Below are positions 577 to 61,095 of a stretch of 64,000 nt of DNA, in pieces. The stretch's first letter is position 1. Each line of letters starts with the position of its first letter. The notes beneath the pieces were generated by a model. It was not told the origin of the DNA. It was given only the letters and a program-made list of their open reading frames with translations, and ran no database searches. The stretch is from the NCBI GenBank assembly GCA_009777335.1, contig WRMC01000002.1, forward strand, positions 124,001-188,000, read 5' to 3'. Position numbers and translations under genes: made by a program. This DNA comes from Treponema sp. (GTDB taxonomy: Bacteria; Spirochaetota; Spirochaetia; Treponematales; Breznakiellaceae).

Positions 577-863
577 TAGGTTTGATCTCGCCACACGAGT
601 GGGCAAACACTGGGAGGGGTGGGAGTTGCTTGGGGCTAGGAATATCTGGGAATTCTCCGCCGGAGGAGACCTCGGACGAAGCAGAATAGGATATAATGAG
701 AAAATCTCCGGCATCCAGTATGTGCGAGGGAAGCTGAACGCAATGATAGAATATGAGAAACTGGGTGCCGGGGGCTCCGTAGGCGGGTTCATCTCAATTC
801 CTAGACCTGAGCGACACCCACCCCTCATGTGGTTAGAAAAAATAAGTGGCGAGATCAAACCTA
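577..863 (+). repeat. Interspersed repeat unit C, copy C1, with an 18-bp perfect inverted end
   Basis: The ends are perfectly inverted: TAGGTTTGATCTCGCCAC at 577-594 against 846-863. Inside is the conserved C core (about 616-830), also found at 16783, 35110 and 60883. Recognisable blocks are AGGGGTGGG, CTAGGAATATCTGGG, CTCCGCCGGAG (a hairpin), AGCAGAATAGGAT, CCAGTATGTGCGA, AAACTGGGTGCCGGGGG and CTCAATTCCTAG. The blocks CTAGGAAT and ATTCCTAG near the two sides can pair, as can the outer G-rich and C-rich ends. An open frame across the unit (557-955) is not conserved in the other copies, so I do not call a gene. Confidence 0.8.
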
Positions 864-16782: not shown

Positions 16783-17024
16783 AGGGGTGGGGGCCGCTCA
16801 GGTCTAGGAATTGAGATGAACCCGCCTACGGAGCCCCCGGCACCCAGTTTCTCATATTCTATCATTGCGTTCAGCTTCCCTCGCACATACTGGGTACCGG
16901 AGCTTACTTCATTATCCTATTCTGCATAACTCGCGGTCTCCTCCGGCGGAGAATTCCCAGATATTCCTAGCCCCAAGCGACCCCCACCCCTCCCTGTGTT
17001 TGTTTACTTAGGTGGCAAGATCGA
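16783..17024 (-). repeat. Interspersed repeat unit C, copy C3 (inverted)
   Basis: The core 16783-16993 closely matches C1 over most of its length on the minus strand. The flank at 17011-17024 is a variant of the GATCTCGCCAC end, but its inverted partner is missing; the A-type terminal repeat (16735-16773) takes its place. Confidence 0.8.
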
Positions 17025-17303: not shown

Positions 17304-17405
17304 GCCCCTGCCAGGGGGACCACGGCGCAGGGGCTAACTGCTTGCCGTTGCTTCCTTCCGGACCTGGCGGAGTTGGGCGGCAGCTCCTCGCATGGTTCCT
17401 GACAG
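17304..17405 (-). ncRNA. ffs: Signal recognition particle RNA (4.5S type)
   Basis: The minus strand has the invariant domain IV loop GTCCGGAAGGAAGCAAC (about 17346-17365), flanked by CTGCCGCC and CGGCAAGCAG. The ends GTCAGGAACCATG and CGTGGTCCCCCTGGC pair to close a rod of about 100 nt. With Ffh it targets ribosomes making membrane proteins to FtsY. The 3' part AGCCCCTGC...GCAGGGGCTTTT also forms an intrinsic terminator. Ends are estimates. Confidence 0.93.
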
Positions 17406-33786: not shown

Positions 33787-33858
33787 ACCGCCTGACTACA
33801 GGATGGGCATGCCAGAGTGGAAACACTGGCTGCTCCTTCTGGGGCCAGGCGGTTTTTT
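33787..33858 (+). terminator. Branched terminator or leader structure between ytcP and lplB copy 4
   Basis: The outer stem ACCGCCTG (33787-33794) pairs with CAGGCGGT (33846-33853), followed by TTTTTT. The 51-nt interior contains a GGGCATGCC palindrome and CCAG...CTGG, more than a plain terminator needs. It could be an attenuator for the next gene. Confidence 0.65.
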
Positions 33859-33879
33859 ATTCATTTAGGAGAAAAATGG

Positions 33880-34797
33880 GTGGCTTTAGCAATTACCAAG
33901 TACAGACTTAAAGATTTTCTTAATAACCGCTGGCTCTATTTACTCTTATTGCCAGGGCTGATCTACTTCTTTATTTTTAGATACCTTCCCATGTGGGGGC
34001 TGCGCATAGCCTTTCTGGACTATAACATGTTTGTCCCCGACGAGAGCGTCTTTATAGGTTTGGAAAACTTTATGAGGCTCTTTTCCCGGAATTCCTTTCT
34101 TCCGGTCCTCTGGAACACCTTAAAAATTAGCCTTTTGCGGCTCTTCTGCGGCTTCCCCATCCCCATCATCCTGGCTCTGATGATGAACGAGATGCGGAAC
34201 CTCCGCTATAAAAAGACCATACAGACCGTTTTATACCTTCCCCACTTTATCTCCTGGGTAATACTCACGGGGCTTATTATCAATATGCTCGACCCCGCTG
34301 GGGGCGTCATAGCCGGGATGATTAGGTTTTTTACCGGCGAATCCCGCTTAATCCTCATAGATAGAAGAGCCTTTGTGCCCCTTCTGGTAATAACGGGGAT
34401 TTATAAGGAAATGGGCTGGGGAACCATCATCTATTTCGCCGCCATGAGCGGGATTGATCAGGAACTCTACGAGGCAGCTACCATAGACGGGGCCTCAAGG
34501 ACCGCCCAGGTGTTCAGAATCACTATTCCCTCCATTATGCCCACCATAGTGATCCTCCTCATCCTGAATTGCGGGGGCATCCTCAGTGCCGGCTTTGAGC
34601 AGGTCTTTATGCTCTATTCACCCCCGGTCTACGAGGTGGCCGACATCATCGATACCTTTGTCTACCGCATGGGGATAATCAGGAACGATTACGCCTTTAG
34701 TACCGCCGCCGGGTTCTTCAAGTCCGTGGTGGCCTTTATCCTGATAGTCTCGGTGAATCAGATAGCGAGGATGACGGAGAATCACGGGATATTCTAG
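33880..34797 (+). CDS. Sugar ABC transporter permease, LplB family (copy 4), 305 aa
   Basis: I start it at GTG 33880, 8 nt after GGAG, because this makes it the same length as copy 3 and its protein then aligns from the first residues. It has the same membrane layout, EAA loop (DQELYEAATIDGASRTAQV) and C-terminus. The two genes are clearly a duplication. Copy 4 has no YtcP gene behind it; repeat locus 4 begins 24 bp after its stop. It may pair with the YtcP protein upstream. Confidence 0.9.
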   Translation: MALAITKYRLKDFLNNRWLYLLLLPGLIYFFIFRYLPMWGLRIAFLDYNMFVPDESVFIGLENFMRLFSRNSFLPVLWNTLKISLLRLFCGFPIPIILALMMNEMRNLRYKKTIQTVLYLPHFISWVILTGLIINMLDPAGGVIAGMIRFFTGESRLILIDRRAFVPLLVITGIYKEMGWGTIIYFAAMSGIDQELYEAATIDGASRTAQVFRITIPSIMPTIVILLILNCGGILSAGFEQVFMLYSPPVYEVADIIDTFVYRMGIIRNDYAFSTAAGFFKSVVAFILIVSVNQIARMTENHGIF

Positions 34798-34820
34798 GAG
34801 ATAGATAGGCACCTTAAGTC

Positions 34821-35005
34821 TAAGACCTCATGCGCAGTTCACCGCTGGACAAAAACATGCCCCTAGCGACTCCTGTGGCAGGGAAGCCTTTTTTCTATAA
34901 TCGTCTATGTTGTATAGCACTTTTGTCCTGCCAATGTCGTCGCCAGGAGCATTTTTTGCTCCAGCTGAGCAAGCACTGAGCGATTAGACTGAGAAGAGCC
35001 TTAAA
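34821..35005 (+). repeat. Interspersed repeat unit A, copy A4
   Basis: The A blocks are present. The outer stem reads GCGAC (34866-34870) and GTCGC (34939-34943), where every other copy has GCGGC and GCCGC: both sides changed and pairing is kept. The inner stem is TGGCAGG (34876-34882) with CCTGCCA (34927-34933), of the A3 type. Confidence 0.8.
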
Positions 35006-35109
35006 TTATCCATCCTCCAAGTGTGATCGGGGGGAAGATAAATAACGAAGTTTTTCGACAAAGGTGACAGACACCATGGGCTGAGGTGATAGGTTAAGCC
35101 TTGTATATT
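35006..35109. other. Linker between units A4 and C4
   Basis: No gene is seen. It is shorter than the linker of locus 1 but keeps the CCTCC...GGGGGG hairpin directly after A and a GGTG/CACC hairpin. Confidence 0.4.
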
Positions 35110-35460
35110 GGCTTGATCTCGCCGCCTAAGGGGCCTAACACGAGAGGGGTGGGGGTCGCTGTGGGCTAGGTAATATCGGCGCATACATGCGCAGAATTCC
35201 CCGCTGGAACCCCCACCGAGGCTCGGACGCTCTATGAGCGTAGGAGCCGAGGTTCCCCTCTGGAAGGAGACCGCGAGAAAAGCAGAATAGGATAATGAAG
35301 GAATCTCCGGCATCCAGTATGTGCGAAGAAAGCTGAACGCAGCAACTTAAGACAAGAAACTGGGTGCCGGGGGCTCCGTAGGCGGGTTCATCTCAATTCC
35401 TAGACCATGGCGGCACCCACCCCTTTTGTGGTTGTTTAATATAGGTGGCGAGATCAAACC
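35110..35460 (+). repeat. Interspersed repeat unit C, copy C4, longest form
   Basis: The inverted ends GGCTTGATCTCGCCGCC (35110-35126) and 35444-35460 pair with one mismatch and one G-T. Relative to C1 the hairpin CTCCGCCGGAG is replaced at the same site by a much longer stem (GAACC, GGCTC and ACGCTC with their complements, about 35205-35258), and a GCGCAT/ATGCGC hairpin is added just before it. Confidence 0.75.
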
Positions 35461-35483
35461 TGGGCAGTTATTATTAAGCCAAT

Positions 35484-35515
35484 AAAAAACCCCCCGGGAG
35501 TGGGGGGTTTTTTTG
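35484..35515 (-). terminator. Terminator after binding protein 4, possibly bidirectional
   Basis: The stem ACCCCCC/GGGGGGT with a T-run on both strands. Confidence 0.88.
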
Positions 35516-35530
35516 TTAGGTCGTTTTAGA

Positions 35531-37168
35531 CTACTGGATCAGGTGTAAGAAGCCCCTCGCGGAGAGGAATTCTCTCATGTCCCTGTCCTGGATAGCCATT
35601 CTTTCGGTGAGTTCTTCAATGACTTCAGCCATCCCTGCGTTGTTCAAGCGGGTGATGTAGGCGTCCCAGGTGTTAATGCTTTCGTTACCGGCAATAACAC
35701 TCCAGATCCAGCCGTCTCTGATGTCGGTGAGGTCAGCACCGTGGCGGTTCCATACGGGGTAGGAGACTACGTCCTTCCGTTCCACGCCCCTGGCATAAGC
35801 CTCACGGCTGTTGATGCCCCTGTTCTCGAAGAGAGCAACAGTTTCGGGGGTGTTGGAAATGTTCCAGCGATCCTTCCGGTTGAACATATCGGCGAAGATG
35901 TTGACGCCAAAGTTCATTTCGGTGTTTTCGGTGGCGGAAATAATCCGGTTAAAGGTTCCATCGGGGTGCCAGTCCCAGTCGAGGCCCTGGACGCCATGGC
36001 GCTTCATGACATAGGGACCATCATAACCGGGGGATTGCATATCGTCCCAAAGGGCAAAGAGCCGTTCGGGGTCAGATGCGTTCCGGGTGATACCGAAGAA
36101 GCACCAGGCGGCCAAGAATCCAGGGTTTTCCTGGGGTCGGCCATTGTCACCGGCTACCATGTCTACGGGGACCAGGACCGCTTCGGGGTTCAATGAAAGA
36201 TAGGTGGTTTGGCTGGTGGGGTTGTTGGTGGCTACCCAGCGGTGCCAGCCGCCAAAATATCCCCTGTTCATTTCTTCGGTGAAGTTAACACCGTTTACCA
36301 CCGAGTTGGGGGTCATGAGGCCCCGGCGATAAAGGTCGGCTACCCTTTCTACCCAGATCCTGGTGTCAGGATGGGCGGCGGAATAGACGAAGCTGCCGTC
36401 GGCGAGCCTACTGAAGGTGTAATAATGGTTACCATAGCCGCCGCCGGAACCCTGAATCCAGGGCCAGAAGTAGCGAAGGTCGTCCCCTGCGGCGCCCCAG
36501 CCGTAGGTATCGTTCTGACCGTTCCGGTCAGGATCGTTGTGGGTGAAGGCATAGAGGACATTTTCCAGTTCAGCCAGGGTCCGGGGAATCGCAAGACCCA
36601 GGGTGTCGAGCCAGTCTTGGCGAAGCCAGATGGTTTCGCAGCCCGGTTCGGAAATATCGCCGGGGATACGGTAAATTCTGCCGTCATCCTGGGCAAAGAA
36701 GAGGGACCGGGGGTCTTGGCTGTTGAGGTAATCCCTCATGACGGTGTATTTGTCGATCCAGCTGGTAAGTTCTACCATAAGACCGGCATTCCGCCACCGG
36801 GTAAAGTCCGGAGCCATGGAGTCGTTCCACCATACGATGTCGGGCCTTTCCCTGTCGTCGGCCATCATGAGCGAGGTCCGGGCGTTGGCATCCGCGGCCC
36901 CGGGCAGAACGATAAGCTCAAAGTTAACGTTGTAACGCTCTTCGAGCCATTGCTGCTGCCGGCTTCCTGATTGGGTGTGACCCCTTAAAAGGAGGACCCT
37001 GATGGGCATGGTTGTTTCCTGGTTTAAAGGATTGACCACTTCACTGGGATCCCTTGTCACCTGTGCCCCTGTCGTTCTTCCGCCACCCCGGTTACAACCA
37101 ATGAGTACAATGGTTGTTAATACGAGGATGATGGCTAAACCAAGGACTTTGATCTTAGTTTTATGCAT
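35531..37168 (-). CDS. Sugar-binding lipoprotein of an ABC transporter (copy 4), 545 aa
   Basis: It is an LplA-type solute-binding protein. The start at 37168 follows GGAGG; the signal MHKTKIKVLGLAIILVLTTI ends in GC at about residue 25. Family features include ARTSLMMADDRERPDIVWW, a WLEERYNVNFELI domain and a C-terminal WIWSVIAGNE. It is only distantly related to copies 1-3. It lies downstream of a YtcP and an LplB gene on the same strand, so these three form a complete binding-protein-plus-two-permease set. Its own promoter and operator-like palindrome precede it. Confidence 0.9.
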   Translation of the reverse strand: MHKTKIKVLGLAIILVLTTIVLIGCNRGGGRTTGAQVTRDPSEVVNPLNQETTMPIRVLLLRGHTQSGSRQQQWLEERYNVNFELIVLPGAADANARTSLMMADDRERPDIVWWNDSMAPDFTRWRNAGLMVELTSWIDKYTVMRDYLNSQDPRSLFFAQDDGRIYRIPGDISEPGCETIWLRQDWLDTLGLAIPRTLAELENVLYAFTHNDPDRNGQNDTYGWGAAGDDLRYFWPWIQGSGGGYGNHYYTFSRLADGSFVYSAAHPDTRIWVERVADLYRRGLMTPNSVVNGVNFTEEMNRGYFGGWHRWVATNNPTSQTTYLSLNPEAVLVPVDMVAGDNGRPQENPGFLAAWCFFGITRNASDPERLFALWDDMQSPGYDGPYVMKRHGVQGLDWDWHPDGTFNRIISATENTEMNFGVNIFADMFNRKDRWNISNTPETVALFENRGINSREAYARGVERKDVVSYPVWNRHGADLTDIRDGWIWSVIAGNESINTWDAYITRLNNAGMAEVIEELTERMAIQDRDMREFLSARGFLHLIQ

Positions 37169-37192
37169 CTTTAAAACCTCCATAAGATTTAG

Positions 37193-37207
37193 TGTGGTAA
37201 CACCACA
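37193..37207. promoter_or_regulatory. 15-bp perfect palindrome at the transcription start of binding protein 4
   Basis: TGTGGTAACACCACA, perfectly symmetric about its central base. It lies just after the predicted start of transcription, the usual place for a repressor such as a LacI-type sugar regulator. Confidence 0.55.
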
Positions 37208-37215
37208 ATGGAACA

Positions 37216-37244
37216 ATTTTATCACCATATAATAATTAAAACAA
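37216..37244 (-). promoter_or_regulatory. Promoter of binding protein 4
   Basis: On the minus strand TTGTTT (37239-37244), 17 nt, TAAAAT (37216-37221). Confidence 0.55.
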
Positions 37245-60882: not shown

Positions 60883-61095
60883 GAGGGGTGGGGGTCGCTT
60901 GGGGCTAGGAATATCTGGGAATTCTCCGCTGGAGGAGACCGCGGGTAAAGCAGAATAGGATAATGAGGTTATCTCCGGCATCCAGTATGTGCGAGAAAAG
61001 CTGAACGCAATGTTGGTAGCCTAGAAACTGGGTGCCGGGGGCTCCGTAGGCGGGTTCATCTCAATTCCTAGACCTGAGCGGCCCCCACCCCTCCT
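60883..61095 (+). repeat. Interspersed repeat unit C, copy C5
   Basis: The core of unit C is present, with CTCCGCTGGAG for the variable hairpin and pairing outer GGGGTGGGGG/CCCCCACCCC ends. The long TTGATCTCGCCAC flanks of C1 and C4 are absent. Confidence 0.8.

Follow-up and report, generated by a model that had tools for sequence, protein, structure and literature searches.

The hairpin element C4 raises the question of how a structured repeat comes by an additional stem. C4 is one copy of a repeat, unit C, in the window, the whole 64,000-nucleotide stretch analysed here (G000:C2:124001-188000), which belongs to an assembly of 2.16 Mb in 28 contigs that is 77% complete. The first-pass annotation had described a long stem at about 35205-35258 and an added GCGCAT/ATGCGC hairpin in C4, where other copies have a short CTCCGC(C/T)GGAG hairpin, and had taken both as stem-tip growth at one fixed site, typical of structured RNAs such as rRNA or RNase P RNA. 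The observation was real. The extra block was 58 nt long, the added hairpin was located, the short form lacking both C4 features was found in three other copies in the window (Table 1), and the sequence on either side of the insert was conserved across 38 copies. The interest of the locus lies in a small palindrome inside a larger one, and not in the growth of a stem tip.

The element is flanked by a permease gene at 33817-34797 (PF00528) and a convergent gene at 35531-37228, the latter with no Pfam match at E 0.001. Folded as RNA, C4 gave a minimum free energy of -177.3 kcal/mol, compared with -128.1 +/- 6.0 for 100 shuffles (z -8.2), and the fold is thus far beyond chance. In the fold of the family, the C4 strand 35200-35205 pairs with GGCGGG at 35381-35386. 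The features of the locus are collected in Table 1.

Table 1. Positions of the parts of C4, the neighbouring features and the other C copies in the window.
Feature	Position	Strand	Remark
Unit C copy C4, complete hairpin element with its outer terminal inverted repeats	35113-35458	+	R2 match 35232-35422, 49.6 bits, E 1.7e-13
C4 left outer inverted repeat TTGATCTCGCCGCC	35113-35126	+	complementary to 35444-35457 except one G-T pair
C4 right outer inverted repeat GGTGGCGAGATCAA	35444-35457	+	
C4 left inner arm GAGGGGTGGGGG	35144-35155	+	
C4 right inner arm CCCACCCC	35416-35423	+	
GGCGCATACATGCGC hairpin variant (GCGCAT/ATGCGC) in C4	35178-35192	+	
C4 conserved core, 5' strand GAATTCCCCGCTGG	35194-35207	+	covariation, alleles
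P, nested palindromic repeat, 58 nt, at site 1 of C4	35206-35263	+	
Third-level hairpin GACGCTC TAT GAGCGT within P of C4	35226-35241	+	
Conserved AGGAGAC of C4	35265-35271	+	GGAG pairs with CTCC 35374-35377
C4 terminal stem CTCCGGCATCCAGT / ACTGGGTGCCGGGG and loop	35305-35373	+	
Unit A, second repeat of the composite, in front of C4	34815-35085	+	
C copy 1, conserved core, insert-free	628-823	+	R2 match
C copy 3, conserved core, insert-free	16785-16978	-	R2 match
C copy 5, conserved core, insert-free	60897-61090	+	R2 match
Hairpin resembling a terminator, between C4 and the convergent gene and not within the conserved part of C	35490-35514	.	

The extra block of C4 was a copy of a palindromic repeat, P, of 43-60 nt with nearly invariant arms, present 13 times in the assembly. 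The left arm GGAACCCCCACCGA had 13 exact matches and the reversed-pattern control had none. With one mismatch allowed, six further places matched, and at three mismatches the pattern (209 + 206 matches) was no commoner than its backward control (288 + 247). The right arm GAGGTTCCCCTCTGG was exact in 11 copies, and the remaining two had CTTCTGG. All 13 copies possessed a GGAACC/GGTTCC stem, with CCCACCGA and a variable middle inside it, and a C(C/T)TCTGG tail at the end; the layout in C4 was GGAACC CCCACCGA, the variable hairpin, GA, GGTTCC and CCTCTGG. The middle existed as two subtypes, each with a lengthened form carrying an extra hairpin, GGACGCTC-NNN-GAGCGT, of which C4 was one. In addition, a block similar to the third-level hairpin of C4 lengthened P of the other subtype (L068, L070 and L080). 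As P carries a further small hairpin, growth appears to be nested, with the mini-hairpin in P and P in C.

P was found in 8 of the 38 C copies, namely three times at site 1 (CCGCYGG), four times at site 2 (CTCCGG before CATCC) and once, inverted, at site 3. The remaining five copies lay in A-type arms, as assigned by eye from the flanks. The single fixed site that had been assumed was thus replaced by two C sites, an inverted third and the arms of unit A. The first-pass annotation had also named the outcome that would speak against it, a separate repeat occurring on its own elsewhere, and this was largely what was observed: the block recurred in 13 copies, at several places and in both orientations, and the part that did not hold was its independence, none of the 13 assembly copies standing outside C or A elements when judged by the flanks. 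GG stood at both ends of P, with an additional A at sites 1 and 3, so this was not a clean target duplication. The GCGCAT hairpin, which had been regarded as part of the same change, turned out to be a separate variant. It occurred in 8 of the 38 C copies, four of which had both GCGC and P, while four others had P only and four had GCGC only.

Unit A is itself dispersed. A often lies on the upstream side of C, oriented alike, and the inverted A marker is sometimes found downstream. The marker CCGCTGGACAAAAACATG had 47 matches in the assembly with 0-2 mismatches, several matches per A element being possible, and the control had 4 at up to 3 mismatches. REP-like palindromes GGTGACTGACACC were seen near the elements at several loci of the own genome (G000) and of G154, for example at L142:249-326.

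The distribution of P was examined on a single tree of 35 C copies, from which the P columns had been left out; this is a weak test. The carriers at site 1 required 3 changes for 3 copies and those at site 2 required 4 for 4, the maximum; shuffling of the labels gave means of 2.95 and 3.86 changes, respectively, the same as observed. Carriers of P at any site clustered mildly (6 changes, with 65 of 500 shuffles as low), and the GCGC variant did cluster (5 changes, as few in 11 of 500 shuffles). Since the P carriers at each site were spread like random C copies, repeated insertion and conversion both fit, and the tree does not tell them apart.

Three explanations of the long stem may be weighed on these results. 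An origin by slippage or fold-back copying at the C hairpin itself, the ordinary stem-tip growth first proposed, is highly improbable. P does vary in its inner hairpin, and C4 does fold with an extra stem, as local growth would have it, but such growth would not yield the same sequence at independent places, and the recurrence of the same arms 13 times at different sites contradicts it. It is conceivable, if doubtful, that P owes its spread among C and A mainly to homologous recombination or gene conversion, starting from a few old insertions, and that it has lost, or never had, the ability to move alone; this concerns P only and is compatible with a mobile C. The confinement of P to C and A fits such a history, because conversion could spread P after few insertions, and the free assortment of P and the GCGC variant is mosaic-like (4, 4 and 4 of the counts above; n = 38), while the tree of C copies leaves conversion and insertion side by side. 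On the other hand, P was found at three different C sites, once inverted, and in A, which argues against conversion, since conversion from C to C cannot shift the site or enter A. We infer that P moves, or gets swapped, repeatedly among C copies, and transposition would be the likelier route. By transposition, P would have been inserted into one strand of the C4 stem after GG, at a target resembling its own 3' end CTCTGG. Such a GG target rule would leave a GG at either end of P, and the C hairpin could still form around it.

The fold of C was evaluated in an alignment (A3) of 14 elements chosen from among the matches; they came from 7 genomes, and G154 contributed 6 of them. The structure paired in 88.9% of 280 cells and in at most 51.1% when slid, a comparison that favours it, as it had been drawn up from the same 14 sequences. 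Compensatory double changes were found in 12 of 20 core pairs, and none of 500 shuffles was as high. The CTCCGCC strand pairs with a far strand of the GGCGGG type, with double changes in 4 of 6 pairs in the same 14 elements, which makes site 1 a bulge within a long stem. Double changes occurred in 0 of 4 pairs of the local hairpin CTCCGC(C/T)GGAG, on which the idea of tip growth had been built, though 89.3% of its cells pair. Of the other two sites, site 2 falls in the terminal stem CTCCGGCATCCAGT / ACTGGGTGCCGGGG, on its 5' strand, and site 3 on the 3' strand of an outer stem, so that none of the insertion sites of C is a tip in the fold supported by covariation. Length variation of the expected kind was present among the relatives at the inner end of the hairpin, where the span covered by the 5' motif, the 3' motif and everything between them ranged from 51 to 151 nt. 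Near-invariant internal stretches were observed in the own copies (alignment A1, with 30 of the 38; seven P-bearing copies and L094, at a contig end, were left out).

The two strands of C were not equivalent. When each was folded alone, the plus strand had the greater stability in all 35 of the own copies folded and in 33 of 43 elements of relatives. A set of 47 elements from five genomes, which shares some elements with these, gave 42 in favour of the plus strand, and the preference by genome (9/14 in G345, then 12/12, 4/4, 8/8 and 9/9) was not unanimous. The consensus energy was -172.5 on the plus strand and -139.0 on the minus strand. The ratio of GU to AC cells pointed the same way, to an extent that depended on the pairs counted. 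It was 238 vs 36 on all 75 plus-strand alifold pairs, 213 vs 8 on 58 pairs picked by hand from them and 25 vs 28 on the other 17; on 64 pairs predicted from the other strand it was 34 vs 24, and on 58 pairs predicted from both strands 33 vs 20. The differences between pair sets indicate that the bias arises mainly at helix positions that pair only on the plus strand. DNA folding parameters also preferred the plus strand in 35 of 35 own copies, so that the strand is singled out, and RNA is not. The 12 of 20 pairs with double changes, together with the better folding of the same strand in most copies, point to selection on one folded strand; selection thus seems to act on one strand of C, folded as RNA or as single-stranded DNA. 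In this respect the structured-RNA reading of the first-pass annotation was partly borne out, by the conserved covarying fold and by the strand that folds better in most copies, and stem-tip growth at a fixed site was not supported.

C was a multicopy family. Allowing 3 mismatches at most, the 27-nt core pattern had 41 matches in the assembly (25 forward and 16 reverse), and the backward control had none. Among these, 38 were read and 3 were not fetched. Three of the 38 had no arm pattern and were skipped in the arm-based comparison, which left 35. The 35 copies on the tree were 73.5-92.8% identical in pairs. The size of C was about 190-350 nt. Terminal inverted repeats of the TTGATCTCGCCACC type were present at many, not all, copies. 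Predicted ORFs of at least 90 aa, taken as spurious, were overlapped by 11 of the 38 copies; with multiple copies, terminal inverted repeats and a presumed non-coding character, C was similar to MITEs. By crude ORF calls, the upstream genes were 15 plus and 21 minus (n = 36) and the downstream genes 13 plus and 21 minus (n = 34), without a clear orientation bias. Copies in the own genome, G000, lay within about 100 bases of the ends of contigs C5, C12, C22, C23, C24 and C25, where the assembly probably breaks, so that the copies are probably undercounted.

The relatives of C that were detected all belonged to one family of bacteria. Among 291 genomes of the order, model R1 detected C in 7; model R2 detected it in 60 of 195 genomes and 19 of 56 genera of the family. 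In a sample of the phylum, R2 detected C in 5 of 392 genomes, all from the same family; the own genome is counted in each case. No sampled genome outside the family gave a match with the covariance model. R1 scored the best 10 candidates per genome, R2 the best 13 and the phylum run the best 6; copy numbers are therefore lower bounds and absence is absence at the sensitivity used. Under R2, 9 genomes reached the limit of 13 scored candidates, and the one-contig genome G042 had at least 11 matches. At the DNA level, a search of 38 relatives revealed no C outside the own genome, which indicates that covariance models are needed to see the relatives. Their common core was roughly TCTGGARTTCYCYGNCGGAGGAGAC, a variable end and GGCTCCGYAGGCRGAYTC, inside long outer stems whose sequence differs even inside one genome. 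At L193, L195-L200, L202, L205 and L209-L211, in G345 and G357, C cores were flanked on one side or on both by terminal repeats CTAAACTTGACCC / GGGTCAAGTTTAG, and GGCAACAGCATTTACC was seen near other elements. In G232 (L153:7592-10324), five C-type elements stood in one orientation around short genes that looked toxin-antitoxin-like by eye. This arrangement prompted a consideration of integron attC sites, which was set aside because C copies are dispersed in both orientations.

Searches for known families gave no counterpart. In Rfam 15, cmscan found no match to C in the window or in 34780-35540; at E up to 10 the latter region gave 20 matches, all to short families (leaders, sRNAs and one microRNA precursor) and below gathering scores, so that the proposed likeness to rRNA or RNase P RNA was not reflected in any large-RNA match. 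The sole match at gathering score in the window was the SRP RNA at 17306-17404, minus strand, which adjoins the A end of the C3 composite. Retron, 6S RNA, CsrA sponge, IscB/TnpB guide RNA and group II intron were also considered and had no Rfam support. With blastn, no match was found in phages or plasmids, and exact patterns had none in GTDB 220 contigs and viral contigs, from which records near the own genome were possibly excluded. Literature searches, mostly at the level of search results, returned no published description of the element. No empty orthologous site for C was seen. PF01797 (Y1, the RAYT-type transposase and the only transposase type searched) had 0 matches in the 77% complete assembly and was found in 5 of 14 control genomes.

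What C is can be judged from its fold and its distribution together. A functional structured RNA, regulatory or scaffolding, at many loci, in which P-type inserts are tolerated like the expansion segments of rRNA, would account for the covarying fold, the near-invariant stretches in the 30 own copies, the variable inner end and the one strand that folds better in most copies. It is nevertheless unlikely, as one genome holds tens of dispersed copies, the flanks share no promoter- or terminator-like sequence beyond the palindrome (by eye), C has no clear orientation to genes and no Rfam match, and 135 of 195 family genomes had no match at the sensitivity used. The dispersed copies, the amplification specific to lineages and the different outer palindromes round the same core favour a mobile palindrome at the DNA level. 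We consider it likely that C is a multicopy, probably mobile, family of structured palindromes that has been colonised by smaller palindromes and whose folded strand is recognised by an enzyme. Folding of the C strand would give a long hairpin in which the internal bulges are conserved; the putative enzyme would recognise this single-stranded fold, which selection would then keep; the copies scattered over the genome would have spread lineage by lineage, presumably by transposition rather than gene conversion.

Several systems of small palindromes have been studied. The BOX elements of Streptococcus are modular repeats that form a long stem-loop, in which the number of the inner module varies. 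C was similar in being a modular long stem-loop, whereas the module here was present at several sites and in both orientations. The palindromic elements of Rickettsia insert into other genetic units and are known mainly from protein genes; unlike them, P was found only within other palindromic repeats. On the best reading, the C family would be REP-, BIME- or MITE-like and would work most like the GC clusters of yeast mitochondria. REPs, BIMEs and REPINs, as outlined in PMC2817692 and PMC3116915, are multicopy extragenic palindromes in mosaic arrangement in bacterial genomes, and such a mosaic of many palindromic copies was found here with the matches to the C core (41) and the A marker (47). 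Compared with REPs, which are given as 20-40 bp in PMC3733652, C and P were both larger, C with conserved internal bulges; and no Y1 transposase, of the RAYT type linked to REPs and BIMEs, was found in the 77% complete assembly. The GC clusters are described in PMC4478555 as 42-nt palindromes with AG repeats (GC42), spreading and merging. Like them, P was a short palindrome with a short flanking direct repeat, merged with other palindromes, whereas the host of P was a conserved hairpin family in a bacterium. This comparison serves as a working model, with P presumed mobile and no kinship of sequence claimed. In sponge mitochondria, intergenic regions were repeatedly invaded by hairpin elements, according to PMC2800124. 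C and P share this recurrent invasion; the sponge elements differ in being organellar, and the account of them in PMC2800124 describes no conserved covarying core.

With the C family, a conserved structured element present in 19 of the 56 genera sampled joins those with no match in Rfam 15, and the family offers a handle on what mobilises large palindromes in these bacteria. Tentatively, smaller mobile hairpins may land by preference in self-spreading structured hairpins of one bacterial family, and an enzyme would read the folded single strand. If this is true, the self-spreading hairpins would be a living bacterial model for the gain of expansion segments by structured RNAs. It is mostly through deep comparisons that the acquisition of extra stems by structured RNAs has been inferred so far. 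In the present genome, sites with P and sites lacking it stand side by side among the C copies, and the fold can be checked by covariation, so that the step is directly testable. A hairpin inside a hairpin may be one way in which structured elements grow.
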